Source of the DNA: Taiwanofungus camphoratus
Taxonomy: Eukaryota > Basidiomycota > Agaricomycetes > Polyporales > Taiwanofungaceae
Assembly: GCA_003999685.1 (NCBI GenBank)
Contig: CP021230.1
Span: 930,001 to 994,000, forward strand
Direction: 5' to 3'
DNA: 64,000 nt
Of the stretch, positions 3,380 to 55,371 are shown one piece after another. The notes under the pieces were generated by a model. That model was not told the origin of the DNA and did not search any database. It saw nothing but the letters and a program-made list of their open reading frames with translations. Every line of letters begins with the position of its first letter. Position 1 is the stretch's first letter. The translations under genes were made by a program, and so were the position numbers.

Positions 3380-4905
3380 ATGCTATTTTGGTCACCTCTT
3401 GATTTGGATAGGAAGGCAAAGCAGGAGCTGATCGTGCTCCGCCATGGAGACGAGCGTGTCCTGGTACTCCTACCAGAAACTTACCAGGTGATGCATTTGC
3501 GATCTTCAACCTTTTTTTTACAGTATTGACATCCTCCGAATTACAAGGATGCGCTAGAAGTCAGTGCACAAGAGTTTGGCTTAAGCGGACAGTTGCGCTT
3601 CATGACTGAAGAGCTGCCCGGCTGCGACGGAGTCAAAGTCAAGATCCATAATAGCGCATGGAAAGCCGTCAGTGGGCTTCTGAATTCCGTCATAGTTGAG
3701 CTAGATGAAAAGCCGTCGGCGGGTGCAGGAAAGAGACGCGTTAGCGTCGTCCCTGAGTCAACGTCTCGCGTCGTCGTGCACGAGGAGGGCGCCATGCCGT
3801 CTGTCAGTTACCTGTCCTCCTCAAGAACACGTAGGATGTCAAGGCTCAGTATGGTGCCCTCGTCGCAAGCCGCAGTCGGCCATCCCGTGGTGCCACGGGC
3901 CGGGCCGCTTACTCCAGCTTCGTCAACCTCTTCTATCAAGAACCAGGCAGTAGTGAATGAGAAACAGGCTCGTGCTTCTTCAACGACGCTGGACCTCCAT
4001 GCGGATATGGAAGTAGACATCGAGGACGAACGTATGCCTTCTCCGAAGAAAAGCCAGCGCCGACGCCGGCAAGTGCAGTCGGATAGTGAAGAGCCCGATC
4101 TCGACGTAGAGGAACAGCACGGCATAGAGCCAGGTGAAGATGAAGAGATAGACATTGCGGAAATCAAAGAGCAAGATTGTAATCCGCGCGCTGCAACGTA
4201 TGAACAAGAGCATGCTCCGGGTCCGTCCGTCGAGCAAAAGCGCGCGGTGAATCCGCCGCCTGTGCAATCCTCGAGGGTGTCTGAGAAAAACGGCAGGCCG
4301 GGTCCTGACACGCAGCAGAAGAACGGTACGTCTTCGCGTTCATCATGTCTGTCAATGATATTTGCTTTCTAACATTAGATCAAGACCAATCTACGACCAA
4401 AGTCAAGAAGGAACATTTGTCTGCGGGTTGTGCTCCAAAACCCGAATCTGCGCCCGAGACATCAGCCTCGCAAGCGGATAGTAAGTCGGTCTTTGTCTAT
4501 TTCATCGGTCTCATGGTAAAGCCAGTACCGACAGAGCCCGTTCCTCAACCGCGCAATGATGAGAGCTTTCTGGTAACAATTGAGTACGACGACGGTGTGA
4601 GCGAGGAGACGCAGTCCCTGTTCAAGACGCGTGGTAGACATCAGGTATCGAAAGTCCTGATGCAAGCGTGCCGCACATTTGGGATTCCGGAATTGTTCAG
4701 CAGGTGGGCATGGACGTTATGAGTGTCTCGCTCAGTGCTGACTGATCGCCCATGTCGCAGGGCGCACCTGGTGCTGATAGTGGACGTGGAAGAGGACGAT
4801 GAGATCGTGGAACACCGGTTCTTGTGCGCGAACAACGACACCATGGCTCGAGCTGGTGCAGAGCCCAACTCCAAATTCGTCATTCAGATTGACGAAGATG
4901 AATGA
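3380..4905 (+). CDS. Protein X: unrecognised 433-aa protein with a possible SUMO/ubiquitin-like C-terminus
   Basis: Five in-frame exons: 3380-3487, 3548-4325, 4379-4480, 4535-4703, 4761-4905. The first ~100 residues form a compact block (RHGDERVLVLLPETYQ|DALEVSAQEFGL, then FMTEELPGCDGVKVKIH). A long Ser/Pro/Glu-rich, charged middle follows (KRRVSVVPES, SPKKSQRRRRQVQSDSEEPD) and is probably disordered and nuclear. The last ~90 residues (FLVTIEYDDG...KTRGRHQVSKVLMQACRTFGI...KFVIQIDEDE) have the strand-helix-strand rhythm of SUMO/Rad60-like beta-grasp domains; this is pattern reading, not a database match. The start is uncertain: an upstream ATG at 3272 is in frame and would add 36 residues. The 3' end of this gene was copied twice downstream (8.85 and 13.8 kb). 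Confidence 0.65.
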
Positions 4906-5246
4906 ATAAGTGATTAGAAGAAGATTTTCATTGAAGGGACGGCAAAGTATGCCGTACAAAAATGAGCGTAAAGCACAGCAATAACGCGAGGTCAAGACCG
5001 AATCTTCCGAAGGTCGAGACGCAGATTTACTTGCAGAAGAGGTTATTGATTGTAATTCAATGTTGCATATATATCTAGATGAAACAGCGATCGTGCTAAC
5101 TGTAAATAATGATAGGTATCAAAATTGCTACATAGTCTGAATGTTAAAATAATGGTATGGTTGATTCGAGAATAAGTGTTGTTACTTGACCAATAGGACA
5201 GATTACTAGAGTGGAAGGTTGTGAACAAGCAGATCTCGACTGAACG

Positions 5247-6595
5247 TCATGCTATGAGGCGTTTAAGATGATAGATTCCTTCCCGTGCAACTGCAACAGT
5301 ATCATACATGACTCGCTCAGGTGCTGATTCACTCCTTGATCGTAGCCGCCAACGTAGCAGAGAGCTATTGAGGCAGGAGCGGATCTCCTCGAAATTCGTC
5401 AAGGCAGCTACTGCATTGAGCCTCCGCGCAGGCTGTACATCTTTCATGGCATCAATCAGAGGCTGAAAGATTTCAAGACCGTGGTATTTCTGGTTTAGAT
5501 GTAAGCCGAGTAACCGCGCATAGAGTTAAGCGACGTACCTGAAGAAACTCCTTGTCGTAAAGATTCCCTAGAGCGAAAATATCCACTTTGAACGCGTCGT
5601 ATGGTACATCTTGTGATAGTTCTGGAGCTTCTTTATCTCTTCCTGTCCTACCCACAACGTACGGTGTGACATCCTCTGGAAAATGCACGGATAGTTCGAA
5701 GTCGATGAAATAATATTTGACGGGATGATCGATGCGATACAGAGGAGTCACCTCAAAGATGGCGTCTGTGGAATAATTTCGACGGATAGGATGATGGCCG
5801 TGCGGGTATAGCGCCCGAGCATCCATCATGATATTAGCGGCAGCGCAATCTCTTTTCAAAAGTTGAAAACATAGAACACGAAAGAGTCTGGCAGATGGAG
5901 CTTACCGGTGAGCTACTCTTTGACTATGGAGAAAGTGCAAGCCCTAGGTATTTTGATCACATGAGTACAATGTAGCATTGTGTTGAAGACATACCTCAAG
6001 AGTCTGCCCAATGAAGTCCACAACCTCTCCTATTGCCGTGAATTCAGGATCGTTGAAAGGCCGCAGATAGGGCATTACCATTAGTGACAGACTCTTGTCA
6101 AATGGATCGGCAAGAACGTCCAATATGGGGACACAATGATTATTGGGAAGCTCAAGCTTTTCCGCAGATGTCAGAAAGCGTGCCAACTGGACTTCGTGTG
6201 TGTTGTTCGGGATTCGCTTAATGGACACTCTTGAGCCGTCTTGTGAACGGATCGCATCGATAACATGATAGTACTAGACGTCGGCGGTCGTGTCAATTCT
6301 CCTAGATCTACCTAAGAAGAGCACATACATTTAACATGATAGAATCCTCACAGAACATTGGGTCCAAATTTGTTCCTAACCAAGATGGATGCCAATCAGG
6401 TAAGTAACGAGGCCTTAGATTATACCCAAAGACTTGAAGAAAAGGTTGTCGGTCCCTCCAGAACTTCTCAGCCGTGCTCAGATGGTAATGTCCTTGCCGA
6501 GTAACCTCGGCGTAACGCTTCGCTTCCGCGGGTGAAACTACTGCATAGGAAGGAAGGCGGTGTAGCGCCTTATTGGTTGAACTTCGAGAAGACAT
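5247..6595 (-). CDS. Kinase-like protein A of the amplified module
   Basis: A 379-aa protein in five exons (6329-6595, 5995-6273, 5906-5943, 5539-5851, 5247-5489), with no interruption. An N-terminal signature (AEKFWRDRQPFLQVFGYNLR, then PDWHPSW) is typical of a basidiomycete family of kinase-like proteins. The fold then shows a beta-3 lysine (VSIK), a hinge-like stretch (LMVMPYLRPF), the catalytic loop HRDCAAANIMMD with HRD and N intact, and an APE-like motif (APELS). The Mg-binding motif reads DFE in YFIDFELS where copies B and D have DFG, so activity is less certain here. Exon 3 is only 38 nt and splits the HRD codons. It is divergent from the plus-strand gene at 6937 and probably shares its promoter. 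Substrate unknown. Confidence 0.82.
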
Positions 6596-6936
6596 TTGAG
6601 ATCTGAGCCCTGAGTGTGGGGATGTGGGTGAGTGCTTGTAATCTTGAAATAACTCGCCTCCAAGTTGATCACTTCGCATGTGGCCAACAGTATTACACAC
6701 GCGTCTTGGCCCTGCGGCGTATTGCTTCACGTCCACCATCAGTACTGCACGACTGGGAACATGCAGACGCAGCGTGGTTCTAATAGTCCTGCTGGGACCG
6801 AAGCGTTGTGTATTCGTGTCCTAGCACTGCACATAAGGTCCCTTTGTCGTTTCTGTGCTACTGACTTGATCCTCTGTCCATCGTTCGCCGTCCACCATCT
6901 CTGCGCACCAATCCGACCGGGCGATCTCCCTCTGCC
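6596..6936. promoter_or_regulatory. Divergent (shared) promoter, unit 1
   Basis: 341 bp separate the ATG of kinase A (minus) from the ATG of the plus-strand partner. The same head-to-head spacing recurs in units 2 (315 bp) and 3 (318 bp), which suggests a conserved bidirectional promoter. I see no clear TATA box near either start. Confidence 0.5.
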
Positions 6937-8401
6937 ATGTCGTCTGCAATAGATATATGGGGTGTGGTTGCAGGGGTATTAGGAACTCTCGGTCTTATAC
7001 CCATGGTACTTGCTATGGTCCAAAGCCAATTTCCTTCCACACGATTGAAGGTTCTCGACGACACTTTGACCGAGACTACGTCCTTGTTTCGTACTGTATC
7101 GGAAGAAGGACTTTTGAAGGACGTTGACTACGTATCTCAGACTCGAGACCGATTGTCTTTGTAGGTTATTCCTTCACACTTTCATATAGCTATTTGACAA
7201 CTACTCGCTAGCATGTGCAGGCAAGCAGAGGAATTCCGGACTGCAACTCATTGCGCCACTACCACTCTCAAAGAATTCAAGGAGCTACTGAAAGGACTGT
7301 CTCGCAAAATCTCTCTGCTCTGCGAGGAGGTGAAAGAACTAAGAGCAAGCATATCGGTAAGTTGTCACTACTCGCCGCATGCATTTCTTGAATTTATTTT
7401 ACTTCTTAAGACAACAAGTTCCAAAGAAAGAGAACGACTATTGAATGGGGGTGGCGTCCTGCAGCACTCACCGGTCACTACTACTAATATTGGCCTGTTC
7501 GGGGCTATGAACACTGCCTATAGACCTGCACTTTCACATGATGGTAAGCGTATTGTTGCATGTAGCCCTTTTCGTCAAATTTTCTGACAGTCATTATTGT
7601 CTCAGAGGGCACAGCTTATCCTGCATTAATGCGTCATGAAGTCAATTCTCAATATACACCCTCTGCTTTGGTGAGTTACAGCCCAGATTACCTATATGTA
7701 TCTTTTTTTAGCCTGACAACTACTTTGACAGCTCGTTGCGTTACACATGGCTTATTTACCAACCACATTGCTAAGGGTGCTACTGCTGGACCTAGTCGTT
7801 TGCCGGCTCTATTTACCGATTCATTTTCAAAGCCATCGCACAATGCTACTGTCTCGCTTGATATGGCCTCCTCCATGAAGCCAGACTGCTGCTGTCAATC
7901 GTCTTCAGACAGCACGACGATAGTAATGGACGAATCGAAATTGGGGCAGCAAATGTTGGCCTCTCCTGAATTGACCAGCGATTTGACTCAACACAACGTC
8001 ATTTCGACCAAGACTGGGTATTATACTAATTCTTCAGTCGTTTCCCCTAAAGACATCGGTGGTAGTCCTAATGTCAATGTGCGTGCAGGCTTATTGCCTC
8101 ATTGGTCACCTCCCATGGGCAAACTCCGATCTAGGACCCGTTTGTATTCAACCGGCAGAACATCGTGGCGCCTGCGTCATAAACCCGCATCCCGAAATCG
8201 ATTCTTTCGCAGGGCGGTGCATTTCGCTCGAGACAGTCAACAGCGGGGTCATCTGAGACAACGGCATCCCCTTCTATTGAAATCACAGAAGTGAATTTGA
8301 GGGGTTGCGACAAGTGCCGAATCCAGACAGACGATGGGGACTGGGAAGATGATGAACATTCCGATATTATGTCGATGCCGCAACTTCTCTTCAAGCAGTG
8401 A
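6937..8401 (+). CDS. Module partner protein A: N-terminal hydrophobic helix, coiled region, acidic tail
   Basis: A 387-aa protein from exons 6937-7160, 7212-7356, 7411-7543, 7606-8078, 8213-8401; all phases agree. Exons 1-2 encode a 123-aa unit shared with the genes at 11122 and 16154. It has DIWGVVAGVLGTLGLIPMVL (a Gly-rich hydrophobic helix), PSTRLKVLDDTLTET, SEEGLL, EFRTATHCATTTLKEF and RKISLLCEEVKELRASIS, i.e. several amphipathic helices. The middle is Ser/Thr-rich and diverged. The end is acidic (DDGDWEDDEHSDIMSMPQLL). The N-terminal opening recalls the HeLo domain start of fungal death proteins (GIVAGALNVAGLF in HET-S), but this is a loose resemblance. No other domain is recognised. A possible extra intron near 7671 is left unspliced because removing it breaks the frame. 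Confidence 0.7.
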
Positions 8402-8601
8402 AACATATTGCGATTTCAAGCTCTGTTTTGGTAACTATCAATGGATATCAACGCCGCTTCCACCGTTCTACTGATAGATAGCTGCGTTCATTGCGTTTTG
8501 TGACGTATCATAACCCGGGGATAGGATGCGACCACAAACTTGGACGAAGCTATCACTCACCACTCTGTCTATTACAAATGTTTTCCTAGTGCCGCCATGT
8601 C

Positions 8602-8720
8602 ATTAGAGTGTATATGCAGAGACCTGGGTCATGGCCAAACAGGAAATTTTCTTATGTTCTACCACCCGATTGACTGATGACCAAGACCTATGTCTCTGCA
8701 GTCTGCGGATACACTCTAAT
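8602..8720. repeat. 119-bp inverted-repeat element (foldback or MITE-like)
   Basis: The ends are imperfect inverted repeats of about 30-45 bp: ATTAGAGTGTATATGCAGAG on the left against the complement of the right end (ATTAGAGTGTATCCGCAGAC). Both arms carry a CAGAGAC(C/A)T.GGTC core. I see no clear target duplication. It lies only in unit 1, after gene A, and so arrived after, or was lost from, the other units. Confidence 0.6.
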
Positions 8721-8849
8721 CTTGGCATGCATCGTATGATATTAACCGGGGCAGCACCACTCGAGACAGTTATATAATGATTATAATACAAAATGGCGGG
8801 TAACACGAGTGGGTGCTAGAGCAAGGCTAAACGCAACTACATATCGAAA

Positions 8850-8988
8850 TTCTTGATGTAGGCGTGCCACACATTTGGGATTTCGGAATTGTTCGATAGG
8901 TAGGGCTGACTGATTGCGTCGCAGGGTGCACCTAGTGCTGATAGTGGAACCTTAAATTCGTCATTCAGATTGGTGAAGAGGATCAGTA
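8850..8988 (+). pseudogene. Relic of the 3' end of gene X (copy 2)
   Basis: This matches the last part of exon 4, the last intron and the last exon of gene X (compare 4646-4905). It is shortened: most of the last exon is missing between GTGCTGATAGTGGA and AAATTCGTCATTCAGATTG. It has no start and no upstream exons, so it is passive sequence carried along by the duplication that made unit 2. Confidence 0.75.
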
Positions 8989-9445
8989 AAGCAATGGGTG
9001 CCCATGAAACAACATTGTTGAAGCTGTGTTGTACACGTACGCCGTGATCCTTCCGCTGACCCTATCGCAAATGCTGCATGTGACTGAGTTGCTTGCAGCA
9101 TAGATGATTGACGTTAAAACGATCATCATGCCGACCTAAAGTGTTCTATGCAGCACAGATTAGAAGGTGTGGTAAATGTACCTTGATAAGATGTCCTGGT
9201 TCTACAACCCGTATATGCATGAAGCAACATTGGATGGGCGAGTTCTACACGTGTGTATAGTACAACATATGTGCTGACGGAAATGATGATAGGTATTGAA
9301 ACATGAGTGCAGCAACAAGAGCGGAGACCGAAAACACAAGATGGCATCGATGGATTGAAAATAAGAACAAATGAGAAGATACCCAGTCTGACTTGCAGAT
9401 TATCAGTGAACAGAGGAAAAGAAACCCTAGTAAAAGCAGCTCACG
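8989..9445. other. Duplicated spacer between X-tail relic and kinase B
   Basis: Non-coding. It is colinear with 14047-14483 in unit 3 (shared landmarks: a TTGTACACGTACGCCGTGA-like stretch and an ATGATAGGTATTGAAACA stretch). This pairs units 2 and 3 as sister copies. Confidence 0.6.
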
Positions 9446-10806
9446 TCAAAATACTAGGCGCTTCAGATGATATATTCCTTCACGAGCAGCAGCCATGGTA
9501 TCATAAAGAACGCGTTCAGGTTGCGACTCATCCCGCGATCGCAGTCGCCAGCGGAGAAGTGGACTATTGAGCTGTCGGCGAATGCGCTCAAAAAGCGCGA
9601 ATGCAGTTTCGGCATTTGGTCGTCGATCAGGGTCTTGTTGTTTCATAGCATCTATCAGTGGCTGCAGGAACTCGAGGCCGTGATATTTCTAATCTCTGTT
9701 GTCAGCCTCTGTGATTCATATACAACACAAAGAAGCTCACTTGAACGAATTCTTTGTCGTACAAATTACCCATTGCAAAAATGTCGACCTTGAATGCATC
9801 GTATGCTATCTCCGACGATAGCTCAGGTACTTCTTTGTCCCTGCCTTCTCTCCCAAGGACATAATGAGGAGCTCCAGGTGCAGAGCGGGTCGATAATCCG
9901 AAATCGATGAAAAGATACCGGACAGGATGATCAATGCGCGAGAGGGGTGTCAGTTCGTATACTCCGTCAGCAGAGTAGCTACGTCGAATAGGGTGGTGAC
10001 CATTGGGAAATAAAGGGCGACCATCCATCATGATGTTCGCAGGTGCGCAGTCTCTGTAACATGTAAGGAAATACCTTGAAAAAACACATTACAGCCAGGA
10101 AAATAGCAACAACGAACCGATGCGCAATGCCCTGTTGATGGAGGAACCAGAGGCCCTGTTGCAAGCACAGAAGTCAAGACAAAGTAGATGTAGGAATGAA
10201 ATCAAACCCGCACTTCGAGTGTCTGCTGGACAAAATCCACAACCTCTCCTATCGCGCCAAATCCAGGATCATCGAATGGTCGTAGGTAAGGCATTATTAG
10301 CAGTGACATTCCATTGTCCAATGGATCGGGCAAGACATCCAGTAAAGAGACACAGTGATTTGCAGGATGCTTCATCAATTCGGGAGAAGATAAAAAGCGT
10401 GCTATTGCAATTTCTTCGCTATCATTTGATGTACTCTTGATCGATACAAGTAAGTCGTCTTGGTGTCGTATGGCGTCAATGACATTGTGATTCTTAAGAG
10501 GTATTGTGCTGATCAGCCAGGCGTCACAATTAAAGACGTCTGCCAAGAAATGCGTACATTCAGCATTATGGAGTCCTCACAAAAAATTGGATCCAATTCT
10601 GTATCTAACCATGAAGGAGACCAATCTGGGCGATAGCGAGGTCTCAAACTGTACCCGCAACGCTGTAGGTAAGGTTGACGGTCTCTCCAAAGCTTCTCGG
10701 CAGGACTGAGATCATAGTTTCCTTTCAACGTGGAGATTCTGAAACGTTGAGCTTGCTCCGGTGTAACAAAGACATATGAGGGCAAGCGAGATGTACGATT
10801 GTTCAT
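9446..10806 (-). CDS. Kinase-like protein B of the amplified module
   Basis: A 373-aa protein in five exons (10558-10806, 10214-10492, 10118-10155, 9741-10053, 9446-9688). The exon lengths 279, 38, 313 and 243 are identical to copy A; only exon 1 differs. Key residues are all present: VSIK lysine, HRDCAPANIMMD catalytic loop, FIDFGLS (true DFG) and VPELS in place of APE. The N-terminal tag is AEKLWRDRQPYLQRCGYSLR and DWSPSWLD. It could be an active protein kinase; the family is known in mushrooms, but I know no substrate. It is head-to-head with the gene at 11122. Compared with copy A the phospho-acceptor/activation region (FGLSTRSAPGAPHYVLGREG) is rewritten, whereas copy D is nearly identical to B. 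Confidence 0.85.
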
Positions 10807-11121
10807 ATTTTCCTCGACCAGCCAGGTGGAAGCTGCACAACTTGGAAGTCGCAGGCCGTGAGATTTGCACGTGTTTGTGGAACGGTTAGATCCTTGGCGC
10901 CTGTAGACGCACGGCCGCTGCATGGCCCGGGGCTGTTCTAGTGAGGTTTGAACACGCCTTTGCAACATGCTCGTGGACGAAGAGCCGCACGCTTCATGCC
11001 GATGCTTTGCGTAACGACTCTCAGTACGTTACTCTTCATAAGAGTGCTTTTTCCCTATATTTTCTAGGCAATTGGGTTGCACCCCTGAACAGGCTAAAGC
11101 CAAACTCCTACAAGCTGTGCT
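10807..11121. promoter_or_regulatory. Divergent (shared) promoter, unit 2
   Basis: 315 bp between the start codons of kinase B and the plus-strand partner. The half next to 11121 is similar to the matching part of unit 3 (CAAAGCCAAACTC...GAGCTGTGCTATG-like), so this side of the promoter was duplicated with the gene. Confidence 0.5.
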
Positions 11122-12512
11122 ATGTCTGCTATCACAGGCTATGATGTCTGGGGCACAGTTGCGGGCATCCTTGGGACCCTCGGTTTGATACCTATTCTGT
11201 CGTCTATCATTAACGACCAGTTGCCATCGACGAAATTAAGAATCCTCGACGAGACTTTTTTCGACACAGAATGCCTTCTCCGTTCTGTCTCAGAGGAAGG
11301 GTTGTTTTTGAATAGCAATTTTATTGCAGAGAAAGAGGGTCGTCTATTAGGGTACGTGCCTTTGTCAGAGTCTGATTTGCCGATTTATATTTTTGAGCTT
11401 ATGCTTTGTCTCAGCATTCATCGACAAGCAGAAGAGTATCGCACAGCGACGTATTGCGCCACGACTTTCGTGAAACAATTGAAAGTAATGATGAAAGGGC
11501 TCTCCAAGAAAATATCGCTTCTCTGCGTGGAGGTCAAGGAAGTTCGGGCGAGTATCTCAGTGGGTCCATCTTCAAGTCCGATATTGTTTCGTGCAGCATG
11601 AATCTAATCAAAATTGTCAGTCAACAAGCGCTAAACAAAGAGAAAGACTTCGGGCTGAGGGTCTCTTGCCGACCAGTGGGAATGCAGCTATTCCAAGCTT
11701 TTCTGTTTCATCAGCACAAACCGCTCCAGTAGAGCGTCCTTTTTGCCCAGGTCTGCTTCATCCTGCATTACATTCGAGCGAGTATCAATATCTGATTACG
11801 AGTGAACTAAGCAGGGGCGTTCACTTCTCACGCACTGGGTGCGTCTACCTGCGGAGAACCTTGCACCGCGAACACTTCAGCGCTATTGACCGCTACAAAG
11901 TCATCCGACCATTGCCATGCAGGATGTGGCATTGCAAATGGGTATCGAGCCAGGTCATTACTCGCAGCACCTCTCTCTTCTTCATCTGGGTGTTACCCGT
12001 GCACTGTCACCGCCGTTCCGTCGGGCCTCGTCCCAGCTCAGAGGACCATGTCCTCGCAGCGTATACAGCCAGATGCGCGTCGAATGATGCCTTCATCATC
12101 TGTTCGGACTGTGATGCCACCCCTAACGTTTTTTAGGAAGCCGCGCATGAAATTCTCAGGTAGGACGAGGCACAGGCTTTATCGACGGAATCACTATCGT
12201 CTATGTCGGTACCACCCGTCACCTCCTCAGTCTCTTCGGTCCGAGCACTCGGAAACGCAAACCCTTGGTCTTTCACACCATGCCCATTCACCTTCCGATA
12301 GAATGAGACACTCGACTGAGACTACAATAGACTCAGTGATGGACCAAGGGATCCATATGAAGGTTCTGGACGGAGCAAAAGACGATAATGATTGGGAAGA
12401 TGCAGACGAATGCGACATTGAGACGGACATTCCGCAGCTCTTGTACTCTGCCCCTGAGATACCTGTTCTGGACGATAGACATAGTGTGGAGGTGCAACGT
12501 TACTCGCGCTAG
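11122..12512 (+). CDS. Module partner protein B
   Basis: A 364-aa protein from exons 11122-11351, 11415-11559, 11621-11781, 11954-12512. Exon 2 (145 nt) and the phases match the other two copies. The N-terminal unit is SAITGYDVWGTVAGILGTLG, LIPILSSIINDQLPSTKL, RSVSEEGLF, EEYRTATYCATTFVKQL, KKISLLCVEVKEVRASIS. The middle is Ser/Pro/Arg-rich and probably disordered. The tail is conserved and acidic (DDNDWEDADECDIETDIPQL, then LYSAPEIPVLDD). A ~170-nt segment (11782-11953) absent from copy 3 is best read as an intron, because removing it restores the frame seen in copy 3. Function unknown; see the copy at 6937 for the weak HeLo-like resemblance. Confidence 0.72.
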
Positions 12513-13064
12513 CAGGTAATCGGTGGGTCGAGAGTACTTGATGAACTGTGCGTAGTCCTTCCTTAGTTCTTCCCTTCCTTCTCTATGCAAGTTTGCTGGG
12601 GTACGATTATTTCATCATGTTGTATGCAAAACATGAGGATAGTGAAAATAGATATCATATTTATCATTCTTCTCGATTTCTATTGTGTGGTAAGTTACAA
12701 ACAAGATCCACTGGCCCAACGATGCGTTGAACAGTCGCGATCATGTGGGAGAAGTATTTTTTTGAGCGCTTGCTGTTTGTGGTTCTATATAAATGGGAGC
12801 AAAGTACGGCAATAATGCGGGGTCAGGACCGCGAGACGCGAGCCTACTTGCAGAGGGAAAGCAAACAAATTTCCAAAAGCTGTTGATAAAATGTTTGCAT
12901 GTATCTAGATGAAACAACAATCGTGCGTATCAAAGTTGTTACATAGGCTGGCAAGGGCTCAAAAGCGACATGATATGGCAATGCGTATTCGAGAACAAGT
13001 GTTACTTGATCGATGGGACAGATCAGCCGTAGAAGGTTGTGGACAAGCAGACCTCGACTGAACG

Positions 13065-13790
13065 TCATGCTACCAGGTGTTTTAGATCATAAATCCCTGC
13101 CCGTACAACTGCTACTATGACAGGTGCCGATTCACTTCTTGATCGTAGTCGCCGACGCAGCAAAGAGCTGCTGAGGGGGAAACGATTCTCGAATTGCGTC
13201 AAGGAAGCTACTGCCTTCGGACAGGTTGTACAATTATCATAGCATCAGCCAGAGGCTGAAAGATCTCAAGACCGTGGTATTTCAGACTGAGACATAAGCA
13301 GAATAATTGCAGATAGACCTAAGTAACGTACTTGTAAAGACTCCTTGTCATAGAGGTTTCCTAGGGAAAAAATATCCACTTTGAACATGCCGTATGATAC
13401 ATCTTGTGATAGTTCTGGAGATTCTTTATCTCTTCTTGTCCTGCCCAGGACGTACGGTGTGACATCTTCTGGAAAATGCACGGATAGTTCGAAGTCAATG
13501 AAATAATATTTGACAGGATGATTGATGCGAGACAGAAGTCACCTTAGAGATGGTGTTCGTGGAATAATTTCGACGGATAGGATGATGGCCGTGCGGGTAT
13601 AGCGCCCGAGCATCCATCATGATATCAGCGGCAGCGCAATCTCTTTTCATACGTTGAAAACATAGAACACGAAAGAGTCTGACAGATGAAGCTTACCGGT
13701 GAGCTACTCTTTGACTATGGAGAAAGTGCAAGCCCTGAGTATTCTAATCACATTGGCACAATGTAGCATTGTGTCAAAGACGTATGTATC
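13065..13790 (-). pseudogene. Kinase relic C (3' half only)
   Basis: This is similar to the last three exons of kinase A (5235-5990), including the catalytic-loop exon (CATCATGATATCAGCGGCAG region) and YFIDFELS-type sequence. It lacks the N-terminal exons and has small deletions and frame changes, for example in the YRIDHP-encoding stretch near 13540 and at the start of the last exon near 13200. It carries the same DFE variant as kinase A, so it came from an A-type copy and not from B or D. It ends abruptly at 13790, where an X-tail copy begins. Confidence 0.8.
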
Positions 13791-13794
13791 AAAA

Positions 13795-14046
13795 GTCTTG
13801 GTGCAGGCGTGCTGCATATTTAGGATTCTGAAATTGTCCTACAGGTAGGCATGGACGTTCAACGTTCAGTACTCAGTACTGACAAATCACACATGCAGGG
13901 CGTACCTGGTGCTGATAGTGGAAGTGGAAGATGACGAGGAGATCGAGGAACACCGATTCTTGTGCACCAGCGATGACGCCATGGCTCGAGCTGGTGCAGA
14001 GCCGAACCACAAATTCACCGTTCAGATCGATGAAGAGGATCGATAA
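13795..14046 (+). pseudogene. Relic of the 3' end of gene X (copy 3)
   Basis: Matches 4646-4905. It keeps the last part of exon 4 (VSKVLVQACCIFRI), the intron and the full last exon, which is still open (LVLIVEVEDDEEIEEHRFLC, then MARAGAEPNHKF) and ends with TAA at 14044-14046. It has no start codon context or upstream exons, so it is probably not expressed on its own. Confidence 0.75.
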
Positions 14047-14483
14047 GGCAATCAGTGTCCAGAAAACAGGATTGTCGAAGTTGTGTTGTGCACGTACACC
14101 GTGACCCTTCTGCTGCATGTAATTGAATTTCATGCAGCCATAGATAATTGACAGTTGAAGATCTTCTCACTGACCTCAAGTGTTCCATATAGTACAGATC
14201 AGAGGGTATGTAAATGTAGCTTGATGAGATGCCTTAATTCTACAACCTGTATATGTAACATCGGATGGGCCAGTTCTACATGTGTTTATAGTACAACATA
14301 TGCGTCGATGGAAATAATGATAGGTATTGAAACACGTGTGCAGCAACGAGAGCGAAGACCGAGAACACAATATGACATCGTGATTGAGTGTGAACCGATG
14401 AGAAAATATCCAGTCTGACAGACACTGACTTGCGGATCATCAGTGAACAGAGAAAAGGAAAACTTAAGTAAAAGCAGCTCACG

Positions 14484-15835
14484 TCAAAATACCAGGCGCT
14501 TTAGATGATATATCCCTTCACGAGCAACGGCCACGGTATCATAAAGAACGCGTTCAGGTTGCGACTCATCCCGCGATCGCAGTCGCCAACGAAGAAGCGG
14601 ACTGTTGAGCTGTTGGCGGATACGTTCAAAAAGCGCGAATGCAGTTTCAGCGTTTGGTCGTCGATCCGGGTGTTGTTGTTTCATAGCATCTATCAGTGGC
14701 TGCAGGAACTCGAGGCCGTGATATTTCTGAACTCTGTTATCAACTATATGATTAATAGGCGACAGGAAGAAGCTCACCTGAACAAATTCTTTGTCGTACA
14801 AATTACCCATTGCAAAAATGTCGACCTTGAATGCATCGTATGCTATCTCCGACGATAGCTCGGGCACTTCCTTGTCCCTGCCTTCTCTCCCAAGGACATA
14901 ATGAGGGGCTCCGGGTGCAGAGCGGGTCGATAACCCGAAGTCGATGAAAAGATATCGGACAGGATGATCAATGCGCGACAGGGGTGTTAGTTCATATACT
15001 CCGTCAGCAGAGTAGCCACGTCGAATGGGGTGGTGACCATTAGGAAATAACGGGCGACCATCCATCATGATGTTCGCAGGTGCGCAGTCTCTGTACATGT
15101 AAGGAGATATCTGAACAAAATTACATTATAGCTGGGAGGATAGCAACAACGAACCGATGCGCAATGCCTTGTTGATGGAGGAACCAGAGGCCCTGTTGCG
15201 TATAAGCATAGAAGTTAAGATAAAGTAGATGTAGGAATGAAATCAAACCCGCACTTCAAGTGTCTGCTGGACAAAATCCACCACCTCTCCAATCGCGCCA
15301 AATTTAGGATCATCGAATGGTCGTAGGTAAGGCATTATCAGAAATGACATTCCATTGTCCAATGGGTCGGGTAAGACATCCAGTATAGAGACACAGTGGT
15401 TTGCGGGATGCTTCATCAGTTCGGGAGAGGAGAGAAAGCGTGCTATTGCAATTTCTTCGCTATCATTTGGTGTGCTTTTTATTGATACAAGCAAGCTGTC
15501 TCGGTGTCGTGTGGCATCAATGACATTGTATTTCTTAAGAAATAATGCGTAATTGCGTTCATTAGTCCTGCGGTCACAATCGAAGAGGTGCGTACATTCA
15601 GCATTATAGAGTCCTCACAAAAAACTGGATCCAAATTGGTATCTAACCATGAAGGAGACCAATCTGGGTGATAGCGAGGTCTCAAGCTGTATCCGCAATG
15701 CTCGAAGTACGGTTGGTGATCTCTCCATAGCTTCTCAGCAGGGCTGAGACTGTAGATTCCTTTCAAGGTAGCAACTCGGTGGCGCTGAGCTTGCTCCGGT
15801 GTGACAAAGACGTACGAAGGTAAGCGACTGTTCAT
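14484..15835 (-). CDS. Kinase-like protein D of the amplified module
   Basis: A 370-aa protein in five exons (15596-15835, 15255-15533, 15155-15192, 14778-15090, 14484-14726) with the same internal exon lengths as copies A and B. Motifs: VSIK lysine, HRDCAPANIMMD, FIDFGLS, VPELS. It starts at ATG 15835 (MNSRLPSYVFV), which aligns with copy B. Exon 4 (PLFPNGHHPIRRGYSADGVY, PGAPHYVLGREGRDKEVPEL) is almost residue-for-residue the same as B, while exon 1 differs more. That fits recent duplication or gene conversion between B and D. The gene is head-to-head with the one at 16154. Confidence 0.85.
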
Positions 15836-16153
15836 GTTCCCTTCCACTAGTCAGTTGCTTGTAGGTGACAAGATCTCGAGTTTTGCACATGTTCCTCAAA
15901 ATCGTGCAGCCTTCGTGGCTGCTGGCAAGATTGTTTGGCACTATTGACGGGGACGGCATATTCGGTTTGGCGACTCGCTGCAAACACGCCCTTACAACAT
16001 GTTCGTCGACAGAGGGTCTACATATACCAATGCTTTGTGTAACGACTCTGAGTACGCTGCTCTTCATAAGAGTAGCTATCCCCATATTTTCTAGGCAATT
16101 CTGCTGCATCTGAGCCAGGCCAAAGCCAAACTCAGAACGTCACGAGCTGTGCT
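15836..16153. promoter_or_regulatory. Divergent (shared) promoter, unit 3
   Basis: 318 bp between the start codons of kinase D and its partner. It contains an ACTCTGAGTACGCTGCTCTT-like stretch also found in unit 2 (near 11020), so it is a duplicated bidirectional promoter. No TATA box is obvious. Confidence 0.5.
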
Positions 16154-17325
16154 ATGTCTAGTATCGCAGGCTACGATGTCTGGGGCATTGTTGCAGGCGT
16201 CCTTGGGACTCTTGGTTTAATACCTATCTTGACTTCTATCGTCAACGACCAGATGCCGTCGGCGAAACTAATGGTTCTCGAGGAGACTTTGTTGGATACT
16301 GACTCTCTTCTACAATCTGTCTCAGAAGAAGGACTGTTTACGAATAACAATTTCATCTCGGAAACAGAACATCGCTTAGCCTAGTATGTGCCTTTGTCAA
16401 AGATTTTCTGCCAATGTGTAGTTCCTGAGCTTCTGTTTTGTTCCAGCTTTCATTCAAAAGCTGAAGAGTATCGCACAGCAACGTATTGCGCCACGACTTT
16501 CATGAAACAATTGAAGGAGATGATGAAAGGGCTATCAAAGAGAATATCGCTTCTCTGCAATGACGTCAAGGACGTTCGAGCGGATATCTCAGTAAGTTCA
16601 TCATGTCCTGCAATATTTCGTGCAGCATAGATTTAATGACAACACATCAGTCAACAAGCTCAACACAACGAAAAAGACTTCATGCAGAGGGTCTCTTACC
16701 GACCAGTGGAAATACAGCGATTCCCAGTACTTCTGTTTCATCAGTACGAGCCGCTCTAGCAGAGCGACCTTTTTGCCAAGGTCTGCTTCACCCTGCATTA
16801 TGTTCGAGCCCTTCTTCGACTGGGTGTTACTCGCGTACTGTCACCGCCGTTCCATCGGGCCGCGTCCCAGCTGAGAGGACCATGTCCTCGCAGCGTATAC
16901 TGCCAGATGCGCGCCAAATGATGCCTTCATCACCTGTTCGGTCTGTGACGGCACCCCCGACATTTGTTCGGAAATCTCGCACGAAATTCTTTGGTAGGGT
17001 GAGGTACAGGCTCTATCGACGGAATCGCTATCGTCTATGTCGGTCCCACCTGTCACCTCCTCAGTTTCTTCTGCCCGAGCACTCGGAAACGCAAACTCTT
17101 GGTCTTTCACACCCTGTGCACTCGCCATCGAATAGAATGAGACGCTCGACTGAGACTACAATAGGCTCAGTGAAAGTTCTGGACGGAGCAAAAGACGATA
17201 ATGATTGGGAAGATGCAGACGAATGCGACATTGAGACGGACATTCCGCAGCTCTTGTACTCTGCCCCTGAGATACCTGTTCTGGACGATAGACATAGTGT
17301 GGAGGTGGATCGTTGCTCGCGCTAG
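16154..17325 (+). CDS. Module partner protein C (third copy)
   Basis: A 349-aa protein from exons 16154-16383, 16447-16591 and 16651-17325. The N-terminal unit is SSIAGYDVWGIVAGVLGTLG, LIPILTSIVNDQMPSAKL, QSVSEEGLF, EEYRTATYCATTFMKQL, KRISLLCNDVKDVRADIS. The third exon is one open frame: Ser/Pro/Arg-rich linker, then the tail KVLDGAKDDNDWEDADECDI, ETDIPQLLYSAPEIPVLDD, almost the same as copy B. The conserved ends and freely changing middle suggest that the N-terminal helices and the acidic tail are the working parts. Confidence 0.75.
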
Positions 17326-17800
17326 CAGGTAATCGGTTGAAGGTACTTGATGAACTGTGCGTAGTCCTTTCTTAGTCCTTCCCTTCCTTCCCTACGCAAG
17401 TTTGCTGGGGTACGATTGTTTCATCATGCTGTATGCAAAGCATGCGGATAGTGAAAATAGATATCATATTTATCATTCTTCTCGATTTCTGTCGCGTGGC
17501 AAGTTACAGGCAAAGTCCACTGGCCCGACGACGCGTCGAACAGTCGCGATCACGTGGGTGAGGTTTATTTTGTGAGCGCTTGCTGTTTGCGGCGTTTCTT
17601 GTTCTGTCTCGATCGCAATGCATTTGAGTAGGGTTTCCAGAGGCTCTAAACAAACAGGACCTTGTATTCAGTCTTGTCACTTCCTCATCATAATGAGAAC
17701 ACAAACCACATTGTTGTCCTGGTATCCCTTGTACCGGCGCCCTTATGCTTCAGCCTGGTATGCTACTGCTAAGCAACAGCCAAAGTTTGCGGCGTAATAC

Positions 17801-21929: not shown

Positions 21930-24900
21930 TATTTTTATTTTTATTTTTAATTCCTCGGGTTTATACTCCATACGACGTAGGTACATGTAGAGTAATAATG
22001 ATAGTAAGTGAGCATCCGTGCCCGCATGAGCGGCACACCTACAGTTTTCAGTGGCTTCGTTATGTGGCGTGGGCATGTAATCCAACAAGGCCTGCAAAAG
22101 GAAGGGTACAGTCATCCATAGAAAGCCATACCCGACCCCCGCCCGACCTGCTTTTCACACTCTGTGTGTTTACTCGGCTCGGTAATCCCGTTCCGTCAGT
22201 AAATCACTTAAGGAACTGAGTGTAGCCCTACAGGTTTCAGGCCTCAGTTATCGTTTGGATAAACAGGAGGGTCATCGCGGATACTGGGCTCCGCTATCCC
22301 CTCGTCTATCCAATTATGGTACATTTCAAATGCCTTTGCTTCGGTGTCGTACCACTCACAGAAATTCCGGTACTTTCCACCCAGGGCTGTTGTCATACCG
22401 GGATCTAAATGTCGGTCTGCATGGAACTGCTGCCATGCCGCTTGTCTTCCGACAGTGTGGCACATAAGATGGGCACGAGTGAACGTTCTCGTGTGCGCCG
22501 CTTCAGCTTCAAGCAGAGATTCTGCTAGAATCTCCGCCCAATCAAATGTAGAGACCATCGGGTTGAGCCGAAGGAACTCCATAATGTCATCTGGGGTCCA
22601 TCCCCTTTGTTCAGGGGGCCCCATCAGAAGCGGATCACGAGGACCCTGTTGGCGCTTCGTTCTGATCCAGAATGGACAGTCGAAGAGCACATGTTCCCTG
22701 GTTTCCTCTGCTCCGCATAAACAGAGGTGAGGGCCAGGGATATTGAATCTAGAGCGGTATTCACCGCCTGGAAAATGGTTGGTGAGCACACAACACACAC
22801 GTGCCACCTCCTTGTTGGACTTGCCAGCTGCCTTCAAGACCCACGTGCCCTTAGCCGTGGTTCCATGCAGCGGTAGGGCGTCCTTGGTTACTTTCCATAA
22901 CCGTCGACCGCGATAGTTGGGATTGTCGACTAATGTCCCCCAGTGCTTTTTGACCCTTGCCTTGACACGAGCAAGGGCCATTGATTGTGAGATGAATTCC
23001 GGTTGGGGATCATCCAATGCTTTCTTCGCGAGTTCATCAACGAACTTGTTCTGAAAAATGCCTTTATGGGATGGAACCCAAAAAAGGACAATGCGTCGGC
23101 GTTCATCTGCATCGAGGAACGCTCGGACGTGTTGAGAGGCCATGACCGCCGCCATTTGTGACGGTCCGACCTCCGGCTTGAAAATTCGGTCGAGTGCCGA
23201 TTGGTTATCGGAACAGACTATAAGGGTGGTGATGTGGGCAGGGACGTCACAGACCGCTTCACGCAGCCCACGCGCCAATGCCAGCATCTCTGCATCAAAG
23301 CTCTGGACCTTGCCGGCCCCGAACTTTCCATGGGCAACGTGATCTTCCCCATCAATGACAAGCCACGCGCTACTGGATCTCACTTGTGGTGCATTTGCAT
23401 ATGATCCATCAGTGAATAGCATTCGCCCTTCTGGCTGGGCCAACTGGCGCCAGAATTCTGGCCACCAGGTGAGCTCCAACCAGTCAGCGAATTCAGGAGA
23501 GCGTTTGTTTGGACCTTTTCCGTCCAGGAACACCCGCTCAAATCGATCAATGTACCAATCCACGATCCGATCACCGGGCCGCGCCTCCGGGTGGAGGGGT
23601 GCAAAATCTTCTGATGATTGTTGCCTGATGCGATCTATGAATGTCATGGGGGTGACAGCCTGTTTTTTGCCACGGCGCGAGTTAAGCGGCCATGGCGCAG
23701 TAATATTGGTGACGTTAGTCGCCCAATAAGGTGGGAGAGCGGCCCTCATTGGGTGCCCTTCGTGAACTCGCCGCGCTCTAAGTGCAGTTTTCTCCATGTA
23801 TCGGTCGACCTGAATGTGGATGGGGACCAGCCCACCCAACATCTCTATCGCCCCGATCGGTGTGATCTTAAAACAGCCGGTGATCCACCGAGCTGCTCTC
23901 GACTGGGCGGTCTGCAGTTCTTTTGCAGCCCATTTGAGGCCCTTTCACTGTGGATTCCACCACAGTTGAGCGCTGTATAACATCAGCGGAATGACGTGCG
24001 CTATATAAAGCCGCCGTTTGTTGATGGGATGGAATCCACGTGCCGAATTACCAAGCATGCGAAGTGCATTGCACGTGCTGGCCGCCTTGTTGGCGTAGAA
24101 CCGCACATGTGCATGGAAGCTAAGCTTGGGGTCTAAAAAGAACCCAAGATAGCGCATCGTGTCCTTTGCTCACAAAGTGACGTCATGTCCGTCAGTTCGG
24201 ATAATTAGATCCGGGCCAAGGGGTCGGGACGTCGAATACCCCTTCTGGCGCTTCCAGAAGTGCATCAACTCCAGCTTGTCTCCTTCGACGCCTAAACCTA
24301 AACGGTTCAGATCACCAACGAGATTGTGGAAGACATCCGCTAAAATAGCGTTGTTCTTCAATACAAGGGCTTGCGGGCTGTCATCAACAGCCTTCGGCGA
24401 AGCCACCATGATGAGATCGTCGTCCACGTAGAACTGAGTCCCAGTTCGGCCCGGTTGTACCAAATGGACTGGCGCCCACTTGTGTATGACCGGTGCAATG
24501 TAAATCCCAGATAGAATCGGGGATAAACTCGATCCTTGACCTACTCCGACATCAAAATCGGATGGATCGGTCAAGGTACCATTGAACAAGAATCGGGTTT
24601 TTCGCCCGATCAAGTAATTTGCCATGAAATTACAGAGTTTGCTATTGAAGCCCTGCTTTCGCATGATTCCTACCAGCGCATCATGATTGATGGACGGGTA
24701 GAACTGTGACACATCAAGCAATAGGACTGATGGGATAAGGTTGCACGCCCATGCCTCTTTGACATTGTGCACTAATTGAATACCAGCGTCAGTGGTGCTA
24801 TGCTGCATCGCCCCACCAAACTGGCATGGGTGTAGGATTCCCCACTTCTGGGCATCCCACTGCATTCTTTTGGCGATGATCTTTTCGAACAGTTTGCCAA

Positions 24901-25161
24901 AACAATTTAGCAAGCAGATAGGCCTGTAGGCCTTCGCTAGTGTATAGTCCGGTTTGTTCGGTTTGGGTAAAACCACCATAACAGACCGCTTGAAGACGCT
25001 CGGATAGACCTCAAAATCGAGGCAAGCATTATAGTACGCGCACAGCCATTGCCACACATGTATACCGAGATCGGTCTCGATGCCCTCCTCAGAGCGCTCG
25101 ATCTGGTCTACCATCCATTTTATCCACATCCAGTTCACGTGATCAGGACCGGGTGCGGACG
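21930..25161 (-). mobile_element. 5'-truncated LINE with RT and RNase H (Tad/I-like clade), copy 1
   Basis: A 3.2-kb non-LTR retrotransposon on the minus strand bounded by a 14-bp duplication. The 3' end is (TTTTTA)n-like on plus, i.e. an A-rich tail. It holds the C-terminal half of ORF2. The reverse transcriptase has LLDVSQFYPSINHDALVGIM, GQGSSLSPILSGIY and FYVDD. An RNase H domain (LFTDGSYANAP, AEMLALARGLREA, VCSDNQSALD) and a terminal CCHC-like region (CLCGAEETREHVLFDCPFW) follow. The reading frame is broken at least twice (around 24160 and between 23842 and 23945). The 5' truncation is the normal outcome of incomplete target-primed reverse transcription. It is close in sequence to copy 2 at 41.5-49 kb. 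Confidence 0.9.
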
Positions 25162-25175
25162 TGATTGTGTACATT
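25162..25175. repeat. Target-site duplication of LINE copy 1 (right)
   Basis: Second copy of TGATTGTGTACATT at the truncated 5' end of the LINE. Confidence 0.85.
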
Positions 25176-34200: not shown

Positions 34201-35582
34201 GGATGATTCGAGACGGTGACCTCCTCTACAATAATCGGGTGTATATTCCCCTAGACGAGGACCTACGACGACAAACGGTCTCGAATTACCACAACCTCCC
34301 CTCCGCCGGCCACCCCGGAATTCAGAAGACTCTCTCGTCTATCCGACGAGATTACTGGTGGCCTGAAATGGCTGATTTCATCACACAATACGTCAAAGGT
34401 TGCGGCACTTGTCAGCAAATGAAAGTTAACACGCACCCCACCTGACCGGCCCTACTCCCAATCAAATCCGCGCAGCACGCCACTCTGTTCAGTACATTCT
34501 GCTGTGATTTCATCACAGATTTGCCGACTTTGGAGGGCTACAATTCAATTCTGGTCGTTGTGGACCACAACTTTACGAAGAGGGTAATTTTCATTCCATG
34601 CAACAAAACGATTGACGCGTCAGGAACAGCCGAGGCATTATATCACGAGGTTTACAAGTGGTTTGGTCTTCCGGACAAGATCATTAGCGATCGAGGACCA
34701 CAATTCGCATCAAAGGTATTCCAGGAGCTCTGCCATATGACCGGAGTCAAGTCAGCTATGAGCACAGCGTTCCACCCTCAAACGGATGGAGAAACGGAAC
34801 GAGTCAACCAGAAGCTGGAAATCTACCTACGATGCTTCACGAGCAACAACCCGGACAACTGGTCATCGCTGCTGGGCTCAGCACAATTCGCTCACAACTC
34901 GCGTGAGCATTCTACGATCAAGGCGTCACCCTTCAAGGTCATGATGGGCTATGAACCTCGAGGGATTCCCATCGTACACCCTGGATCGGACACATCAGGC
35001 ACCGCTTATCGACTGCGGAACCTGCAGAAGATTCGGGAAGATGCACACTCCGCAATGGAGCTAGCACAGGCGGTGTTAGCAAAACGTGTGAAACTCAAAG
35101 GAACGGGTTTCCGCAAAGGACAAAAGGTATGGCTAGACTCACAGAATCTAAAGCTACCATACCTGATGAGGAAGTTGGCTCCCAAACGCAAGGGCCCCTT
35201 CGAAATCACGGATGTTCTAGGACCGGTGTCTTACAAGCTGAAACTCCCGACAACATGGCGAGTGCACCCCATTTTTCACGCCGCACTTCTTTCGCCATAC
35301 ACTGAGATGGACACCCATGGTCCCAACTACACGGAACCACCACCGAAGCTTATCAGCGGCGAAGATAACTACAAAGTCAAAGCTCTGGTCGGACATCGTG
35401 AGAATCGCCAAAGAAACCGCTGCAAATATCGAGTCAGGTGGAAAGGTTACTCATCCACCGATGACTCATGGGAACTGGAAGAGAACCTAGCCGGTACTGC
35501 GGACGAGCTGCTGGACACATATAAGCAGCGCAAGAATTTACGATGAGGAATCAATTGCATTTTCACCCCACTCATCACCCGC

Positions 35583-41478: not shown

Positions 41479-41785
41479 TTTTTTTTTTTTTTTTAATTCC
41501 TCGGGTTTATACTCCATACGACGTAGGTACATGTAGAGTAATAATGATAGTAAGTGGGCATCCGCGCCCTCATGAGCGGCACACCTACAGTTTTCAGTGG
41601 CCTCGTTATGTGGCGTGGGCATATAATCCAGCAAGGCCTGCAAAAGGAAAGGTACAGTCATCCATAGGAAGCCATACCCATCCCCCGCCCGACCTGCCTT
41701 TCATGCTGTGTTTACTCGGCCCGGTAATCCTGTTCTGTCAGTAAGTCACTTAAGGAACTGAGTGTAGTCCTACAGGTTTCAGGCC

Positions 41786-44700: not shown

Positions 44701-46285
44701 ACGTATTGCTAGTGGATTTAAGATTCTCGCGAATCTCAAACTCACTAATGTCTGGTAAAGTCAACTCCTCCCATTGAGGAATTTCGTCCACAAATGACAG
44801 ATCCACCGGCCATGGGTTGGCAGGCGTGAACTGAGCTTAAAAAGCACGACTAAGATCAGCCGCACTTTGGACTGGCGCACCGTTAGCTTGCCGCAGCTGA
44901 ATAGTGGCCTCTTGCCATCTCGGCTTTGTCCAGGCGACAAAGTCAGAGATTAATTGAGGATTGGATTCATCCATGATCCGATCAAAGTGTGCGCGCTTTG
45001 CCCGCTTCGTGGCAAGGCGAAGCGTTGCACGTTGTTTATGCCGTTCGGACCGAATTTCGGCGGCAACATCATATGCATCTGCAGTGGCCTGGGCGCCAGG
45101 TCCCAACTGATGACGTATGTAGTGGTACTGTCCAGACGCCGCACTGAGGCGGTGCTGTGTATTCGCCAGCTTGGTGGCCACGCGGGAGCATGCAGCGTCC
45201 CACCACGACTTTGAACGTTTGGATGGGCGTTTTACTGCCGAAAACTCCATCCATAGTCATTGGAGGTCTCGCTCGAGGCGGTCCCCCATTCTTTCAACAC
45301 CTTGAGCGCTGCTGAAATGTGTAGGGTAATCAGCGAACAGTTTTGCCGATGCCGTCACGAATTGTTGAGCCACGTTGCCTGTGCAAGGAATACCCCGCAC
45401 CGGTTCCGGTTCAACCTCAATCGGCATCTCCCACCACAGGACCGCATGGTCGCTGTTGTGGCGATGTGACATAAGTACATGGAGGTCTTGGCCTTCATAG
45501 TACACTGGGTCGATCCACACCAAGTCAATGACTCCAGGCGTGAGAGCGATATTATGGGAACGCCAAGTGACTGGACCGTCCTGGGCGTTCATCAAGACCA
45601 GATCGAGTTTGGCCTGGGCCAACTCAATGAGGCGATTGGAATCAGCGTAGTGCGGAGGCCACACCCGAGATCCCGCAGCTCGTGTATCCCACAATGGGTG
45701 GCGAAGATTGAAATCCCCGCACATACACGCAATGGGTGGAAGTGCATATACACGTGTTTCTAAGTATCTGATAGCATCAAAGGTGGTGCTGTCGTTGTAC
45801 ACGTTCAGGACATTAAAGTCTCCGGACGGAAGCTTGAGCGCTACCAGAAGGCAATCCTTATGAGAGACGCTGTGGGTGACAACTTGCGGAGAGGCCGAGG
45901 CCCACCGCTTGTTGACGTAAACTGCGACCCTGGAATCTTTCGATGCCCCAAGGCACTTAAACGAGGCATGGGCAGACATATTCTCATACGCCTCCCCATC
46001 CTGTGACTTAGCTGAAGCCACATCCTTGATGCGTCCCCAATATATTTCTTGGATGCAGATAATATCCGCATCCCTATGACGTTCCAGCAGAATGCCAGTA
46101 TTTTTCGCTGATTTCTGGACATTTGCACTAATTATAGTGAGAATGGATCGATTATTCGGTTCATTCTCAACTTCTGCACCTACATCCGATGGGCTGGGTG
46201 TACGGTTGGGGTCCGGTGCCTCTATTGGAGACTCAGACCTATCAGGTATAATATTTACAGTCAATCTTTGTGATGTACTATACAT
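41786..46285 (-). pseudogene. LINE copy 2 ORF2: APE endonuclease, reverse transcriptase, RNase H
   Basis: From the 5' end: APE-type endonuclease (ISANVQKS, CIQEIYWG, CGDFNLRHPLWD, SHRHNSDHAVLWW, to about 45257). A linker follows, then reverse transcriptase (PGPDHVNWMW, LLDVSQFYPSINHDALVGIM, SQGSSLSLILSGVY, FYVDDGL). Next comes RNase H (LFTDGSYANAPSVRSGSAWL, AEMLALAHGLREA, VCSDNQSALD) and a C-terminal cysteine motif (CLCRVEETREHVLF). The order EN-RT-RH is that of the I/Tad/R1 group. Open stretches end at 45257, 44837, 44408, 44135, 42728 and 41786, so about five stops or frame changes interrupt it. The catalytic YVDD is kept. Confidence 0.85.
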
Positions 46286-49014: not shown

Positions 49015-49170
49015 GAAGCTTTACGTCTGTATCATCCAACCCGTGTAGTTCTCCCTAACCTCCGCGAACTTCGATGGTACACCGAGGAGATGGACGTCTC
49101 GTATGCACCCATCTTCCTCACCCCAAGTTTGACGAGCTTCGCGTTCGTCGTTTCTCGCTCACATGTTACG

Positions 49171-55263: not shown

Positions 55264-55371
55264 GGTGACGGGTGAATGGAATGATTTTCGATCGAAGTAA
55301 GGGACTTAAATAAGTAGCAATAAGTAAAGTTTATAGTCGATTTTTGCCATTGATTCCCCGTGATACTCTTT

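Follow-up and report, generated by a model that had tools for sequence, protein, structure and literature searches.

Fungal cell-death pathways are described as often comprising two- or three-gene clusters, with some HeLo-like domains fused to kinase domains (PMC12881547), and the MLKL-like domains of basidiomycetes are characterized as many and poorly annotated (PMC9815663). For HD pairs, divergent transcription, tandem duplication, and variable N-termini are listed (PMC8686365). Here we describe an array in Taiwanofungus camphoratus that recalls both systems and departs from both. Within the window, the whole 64,000-nucleotide stretch of DNA that was analyzed, three divergent pairs of a kinase gene on the minus strand and a partner gene on the plus strand lie at 5247-8401 (pair A), 9446-12512 (pair B), and 14484-17325 (pair C). 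As with the MLKL, HeLo, and HET-S bundles, there is a hydrophobic N-terminus (on the partner) and a kinase nearby, but kinase and helical protein are here two genes, and no profile match was obtained. As with the HD1/HD2 mating-type pairs of mushrooms, the pairs are tandem and divergent, and between B and C the facing ends and promoter appear more diverged than the outer arms; unlike them, kinase and partner have no homeodomain match, and the copies compared are paralogs, not alleles. Our preferred reading, which we hold at a probability of roughly 0.45, is that a lineage-specific kinase and a membrane-anchored orphan partner make up a small signaling module, and that birth and death, together with gene conversion, diversify its copies. 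Both the pairing and the direction from kinase to substrate are guesses. In such a module, the two genes would be expressed together from their shared promoter, the partner would be held at the membrane by its N-terminal helix, and the kinase would bind the partner or phosphorylate its tail, which is rich in Ser, Thr, Pro, and Arg.

Spliced models could be written for all six genes of the three pairs, their exon structures being deduced from sequence. The kinase genes, all on the minus strand, each have five exons: KA (6595-5247; exons 6595-6329, 6273-5995, 5943-5906, 5851-5539, and 5489-5247; 379 aa), KB (10806-9446; exons 10806-10558, 10492-10214, 10155-10118, 10053-9741, and 9688-9446; 373 aa), and KC (15835-14484; exons 15835-15596, 15533-15255, 15192-15155, 15090-14778, and 14726-14484; 370 aa). 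Exons 2 to 5 measure 279, 38, 313, and 243 nt in every one. The partner genes, on the plus strand, are PA (6937-8401; exons 6937-7160, 7221-7356, 7411-7543, 7606-8247, and 8289-8401; 415 aa), PB (11122-12512; exons 11122-11351, 11415-11559, 11621-11781, and 11954-12512; 364 aa), and PC (16154-17325; exons 16154-16383, 16447-16591, and 16651-17325; 349 aa), and their introns 1 and 2 are identical in phase. PA and PB are uncertain in their 3′ halves: the last intron of PA is 41 nt long with a weak donor, and without it the gene stops at 8294 and encodes 393 aa, while the 172-nt third intron of PB was picked to hold the frame. From ATG to ATG, the intergenic promoter regions span 341 bp in pair A (6596-6936), 315 bp in B (10807-11121), and 318 bp in C (15836-16153). 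The models thus bear out an earlier, sequence-only reading of this DNA that had proposed three intact head-to-head pairs with shared promoters of 315 to 341 bp and a preserved splice architecture; its partner length of 349 to 387 aa holds for PB and PC and is exceeded by the spliced model of PA. The B and C promoters differ at 99 of 297 aligned sites and have the dyad CTCTTCATAAGAG in common. In a search for shared words, the A promoter had none of 10 or more bases in common with B or C, and none of 8 or more bases recurred in all three.

Against the Pfam protein kinase family PF00069 (cut-off 31.7 bits), KA scores 38.2 bits (E 1.4e-9) and KB 33.0 bits (E 5.3e-8); KC, at 31.6 bits (E 1.5e-7), falls 0.1 below, so that two of the three pass. 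By eye, all three keep, in common with eukaryotic protein kinases, HRD and a Lys (in VSIK) that we take to be the catalytic one; DFG is present in KB and KC. They differ from such kinases, again by eye, in having no visible glycine-rich loop before VSIK, a catalytic loop HRDCA.AN without the usual Lys, and, in KA, DFE. Kinase activity is uncertain because KC lies under the Pfam cut-off and KA has DFE. When the PDB was searched with KB, ordinary kinases alone appeared among the best 60 of 816 matches (best E 4.4e-5). FunK1 (PF17667) was rejected as an identity for the three proteins, its model being absent among their Pfam matches to E 10; elsewhere in the same genome it matches at least 169 exons. 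In common with fungal lineage-specific kinases, KA, KB, and KC have relatives elsewhere in the genome.

The partner is an orphan protein in which a hydrophobic front is followed by a short stretch of predicted helix or coiled coil and then by a tail of low complexity. A strongly hydrophobic stretch occupies residues 10 to 28 of PA and 12 to 30 of both PB and PC, in agreement with the membrane-type N-terminal segment ascribed to each partner from sequence, and this segment is probably membrane-inserted. All three models share the acidic end DD.DWED....DI....PQLL, with one gap in PA. The Pfam search gave no family at E<0.1 for PA and none over cut-off for PA, PB, or PC, in a setting where HMMER filters discard most matches above E 0.1. 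A scan of viral contigs for partner relatives gave 37 pattern matches, of which none was confirmed as a relative.

Judged from the sequence, the array is a tandem one derived from a single ancestral divergent pair, with at least four units, three of them intact. Units B and C are 80 to 87% alike (KC and KB share 93% amino-acid identity), unit A is older than either, and the likeness is far above chance (blastn E 0 for B-C and 2e-40 for the A-B kinases). Since the duplicated unit is the pair itself, the three pairs count as one association, not three. Kinase copy D (12927-13784, minus strand; 81.6% by blastn to 5116-5993) aligns as A-like and is broken: its front exons are gone, its gaps break the frame, and no partner lies alongside. 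The unit without a partner is in this way also one with a broken kinase. As the junction suggests that D lost its partner and the kinase front together, its decay gives no sign of mutual dependence. The 3′ end of an apparent upstream gene, without a Pfam family, marks the left edge of unit A (4645-4901, plus strand, by blastn); copies on the same strand mark the left edges of unit B (8842-8948, degraded, two blastn pieces at 89% and 85%) and unit C (13786-14039, blastn 80%), the latter directly abutting the broken kinase D. Partial copies, which the sequence-only reading had also listed, therefore exist for the kinase and for this 3′ end, but not for the partner: a profile search of the open frames of the window matched PA, PB, and PC alone.

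Between B and C, both the kinase and partner residues 1 to 139 are under purifying selection, with omega values of 0.13 (95% bootstrap 0.08-0.20) and 0.30 (0.17-0.49), respectively. For the partner tail, omega is 0.63 (0.38-1.03), not clearly under 1. The proposal that both genes are under selection consequently stands for the kinase and the front of the partner, but not for the tail; with this omega and an identity of the B and C tails to A of 25 to 30%, a conserved phosphorylated tail is unsupported. Comparisons of A with B or C gave no usable omega, synonymous sites being saturated or almost so.

The divergence of B from C is mosaic, which is a new observation. A literature search that linked kinases of Agaricomycetes to tandem duplication, to gene conversion, and to bidirectional promoters returned no paper on this subject by title. 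When 4-fold and intron sites were scanned with the interval left free, a central block of raised silent divergence emerged at 10499-11394 of unit B. It takes in kinase exon 1 with the greater part of kinase intron 1, the promoter, and, on the partner side, exon 1 with some of intron 1. Silent differences amount to 68 of 152 sites (0.45) in this block and 93 of 509 (0.18) outside it (p 0.0033 by permutation, the lowest value that 300 shuffles can give). The boundary between center and arms had first been set after inspection of the divergence, and the later free scan let the data place the interval. With 4-fold sites alone, the free scan gave p 0.15 and 0.19, below significance, in a comparison of two paralogs. 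A-D divergence is also mosaic, the kinase core being more alike, although all sites including coding ones enter this comparison, so that it is no silent-site test. Gene conversion that spared the center would explain the B-C mosaic.

We weighed these results against a reading in which kinase and unrelated orphan were chance divergent neighbors when the segment was duplicated, each being kept separately or decaying slowly with no functional link. This explanation is a serious contender, nearly as likely as the signaling pair. The upstream-gene 3′ end, present at three places, also lies inside the repeated unit, which implies that duplication took whatever lay there, and the weak constraint on the partner tail is in keeping with such hitchhiking. 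The genome at large speaks on both sides. Kinase matches at E<=0.01 were found at 13 places outside the window, and the flanks of nine, in eight stretches, were examined; C2:836014, C3:1739845, C7:477579, and C1:379816, each a single weak match, were excluded as likely generic kinases. A recognizable partner was absent at all nine, as hitchhiking would have it, although two of these are slight: C4:447288 is one weak match with three stops that was absent on re-search, and C4:454693 is a single exon. Against hitchhiking, the partner was found in the 33-Mb genome at this array alone, in all three copies beside a kinase and never without one, and both genes are intact in each of the three surviving pairs even though synonymous sites have reached saturation between A and B or C. 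The idea that the two work jointly thus gains from the constant presence of a kinase beside the partner and loses from the single ancestral association and the nine examined kinase places without a recognizable partner.

A two-gene cell-death pair resembling MLKL/RIPK3 or HET-S, in which kinase action would free the hydrophobic front of a membrane-permeabilizing helical bundle, is improbable. The hydrophobic front of all three partners and the adjoining kinase would suit it, as would the helices predicted with low confidence at model residues 9-20, 23-33, 38-58, 67-76, and 86-146 in an AlphaFold2 partner model too weak to judge the fold by (mean pLDDT 51, pTM 0.25), whose input translation retained intron 1 as a 21-aa insert. 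The analogy to MLKL or HeLo proteins raised by the sequence-only reading nevertheless finds no sequence support: neither a HeLo-type nor any other Pfam family exceeded its cut-off for PA, PB, or PC; the five PDB profile matches include no 4HB chain, the best being a coiled coil at E 0.38; and PF14479 (HeLo) was unmatched in an exon-by-exon search of the genome at E<=0.1. A family search with PigL_N (PF17111) gave nothing over cut-off and one match at E 0.063.

We consider equally improbable a recognition locus resembling the basidiomycete HD mating-type locus, in which the outer arms of several divergent pairs are homogenized, differences persist in the facing N-termini and the promoter, and copies or alleles can thereby tell self from non-self. 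The B-C mosaic, with its center at the promoter and the first exons of kinase and partner, and its A-D counterpart would fit; against it, the 4-fold sites alone fall below significance between two copies, and no homeodomain was matched among the Pfam families for KA, KB, KC, PA, PB, or PC. Least probable of all is a non-homeodomain version, in which cognate pairs of kinase and membrane orphan would carry specificity in their facing N-termini, the rest being homogenized by conversion, and mismatches between paralogs or strains would trigger signaling or death.

If kinase and partner are unrelated neighbors, the array is an ordinary tandem duplication. If, as in the signaling module that we prefer, the pair works together, an orphan membrane protein and a lineage-specific fungal kinase of unassigned role would each gain a function. 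Specificity could then be tested directly on the three diverged cognate pairs, and for such a test the mosaic pattern predicts that swaps of the center matter and swaps of the arms do not.

Three divergent pairs, each comprising a kinase gene on the minus strand and an orphan partner gene on the plus strand, stand in tandem in the window (contig C11, 930001–994000) as units A (KA, 5247..6595; PA, 6937..8401), B (KB, 9446..10806; PB, 11122..12512) and C (KC, 14484..15835; PC, 16154..17325). The surrounding genome gives 60 matches to DUF6533, a domain typical of basidiomycetes, and 14 control genomes (all the named ones prokaryotes) give none, which points to a basidiomycete. All three kinase genes have five exons, with exons 2–5 measuring 279, 38, 313, and 243 nt in every copy. 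Introns 1 and 2 of the partner genes have common phases; the PA and PB models are uncertain towards the 3′ end (introns there were picked to keep frame). Start codons within a pair lie 341 (A), 315 (B), and 318 bp (C) apart. The tandem array claimed in the sequence-only reading is sound, a genuine amplification of a gene pair.

By self-comparison of the window, B and C are 80% and 87% alike in two pieces (∼3.7 kb in total), and A is more distant from both (64% in the kinase). The last part of an apparent upstream gene (4645–4901, at the start of unit A) recurs at the starts of B (8842–8948) and C (13786–14039). Between B and C lies a partnerless kinase copy, D (12927–13784, minus strand), 82% like A, which lacks the front exons, is broken in frame by gaps, and directly adjoins unit C's copy of the upstream-gene end. 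The repeated gene ends and D indicate that one pair, together with a fragment of flanking sequence, was amplified into four or more units, one of which has decayed.

Pfam identifies KA and KB as protein kinases, and KC scores 0.1 bit below the kinase cut-off. Read by eye, all three keep the Lys and HRD and show no clear glycine-rich loop; in KA, DFE replaces DFG. FunK1 kinases, described as a fungal expansion of open function (PMC3203195), have at least 169 PF17667 matches in this genome, including equal-score sets on contigs C5 and C9, but the array kinases do not match that model. The model also matches in 4 of the 14 control genomes, 2 over cut-off. One FunK1 open frame (37966–39681, minus strand; 571 aa, E 1.3e-42), with an open frame adjoining it at 39682–40485, has four other full-length copies on the same contig at 93 to 96% identity, a pattern suggestive of mobile or segmental spread.

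Self-comparison also revealed repeats elsewhere in the window. A retroelement occurs twice (21933–25167 and 41479–44708, 93% identical); reverse transcriptase (RVT_1) and RNase H frames in the first copy suggest a non-LTR type. An open frame at 34446–35546 (plus strand) encodes an integrase core, Tf2-type SH3, and chromodomain, the combination seen in chromodomain LTR retroelements. An inverted repeat of ∼1.2 kb (28178–29383/30072–31275, 94% identical) has smaller repeats close by. A 214 to 241 bp element in three copies 88 to 93% alike (49165–49415, 55056–55274, and 59744–59992) may be a small inverted-repeat transposon, as the last copy weakly matches its own reverse complement (64%).

All three partners carry, near the N-terminus, a 19-residue segment of mean Kyte–Doolittle hydropathy 2.0 to 2.35. 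No Pfam family was found at E<0.1, and PDB sequence matches were only to helical or coiled-coil chains (WTAP, PKN, spectrin; E 0.38 and above). AlphaFold2 rendered PB, input as a contiguous translation retaining intron 1, as helical, in a model too weak to judge helix packing or a four-helix fold (mean pLDDT 51). No sequence test here supports membership among MLKL- and HeLo-type death proteins, the analogy drawn in the sequence-only reading. A review (PMC12881547) describes death clusters of two and three genes, as well as fusions of HeLo-like domains to kinases, and a survey (PMC9815663) reports ∼600 MLKL-like sequences in NLRs of basidiomycetes.

Three single-sequence searches of the genome (33.2 Mb, 15 contigs; E up to 10) found no partner beyond this array; only 3, 5, and 8 candidates were scored in them, and distant copies may have been missed. 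Kinase matches occur at 13 places outside the window. A profile search of the flanks of nine of these (eight stretches) found no partner, the best outside-window E being 1.1, on a kinase frame; in a leave-one-out control, a profile of PB and PC recovered PA at E 6e-24. Exon-by-exon identity of the outside kinases to KB is only 29 to 63%, and a partner that had diverged to the same or a greater degree could escape the profile. No look-alike was seen by eye on the divergent side of seven outside stretches. On these searches, the partner was seen only with the kinase (3/3, one lineage), and no partner could be recognised beside most of the kinases. The repetition from which a partnership had been claimed is real, but the step from one to the other is weaker than it appears.

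Between B and C, omega was 0.13 (0.08–0.20) for the kinase, 0.30 (0.17–0.49) for partner residues 1 to 139, and 0.63 (0.38–1.03) for the partner tail. Against A, where synonymous sites are saturated or nearly so, amino-acid identity to B and C was 66 to 67%, 57%, and 25 to 30%, respectively. The tail is therefore weakly constrained; its acidic end is still recognisable in all three models.

Sliding B–C identity was 88 to 95% in the kinase core and 86 to 94% in the partner tail and 3′ flank, intermediate (77–85%) downstream of the kinase, and low (57–81%) across kinase exon 1, the promoter, and partner exon 1. Of the fourfold and intron sites, 99/279 in the centre and 62/382 in the arms differ (Fisher 1.7e-8; fourfold sites alone, 0.015; circular shift, 0.04); this boundary was set after the fact. 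A scan of these sites that was free to choose its own interval picked 10499–11394, where 68/152 sites differ, compared with 93/509 elsewhere; site and block shuffles both gave p 0.0033, the lowest value that 300 shuffles allow. Adding intergenic sites moved the interval to 10500–11695 (p 0.0099, the lowest for 100 shuffles), and fourfold sites alone gave no significant result (p 0.15 and 0.19). Using all sites, A and D share a more-alike block that takes in exon 3 and intron 3 of the kinase and the greater part of exon 4 (24/368 differences versus 114/498; p 0.005, the lowest that 200 shuffles allow). A stretch well conserved between the B (10960–11085) and C (16000–16115) promoters contains the dyad CTCTTCATAAGAG and ATATTTTCTAGGCAATT and may be a regulatory site; it was not found in the A promoter, which has no 10-base word in common with the other two.

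The B–C mosaic, a comparison of two copies, is most simply explained by gene conversion of the arms; selection may also protect the centre. In mosaic and layout, the array resembles HD mating-type pairs, described as divergently transcribed and multiplied, with variable N-termini (PMC8686365), but it has no homeodomain match. The diverged centre is one new, testable feature of the array.
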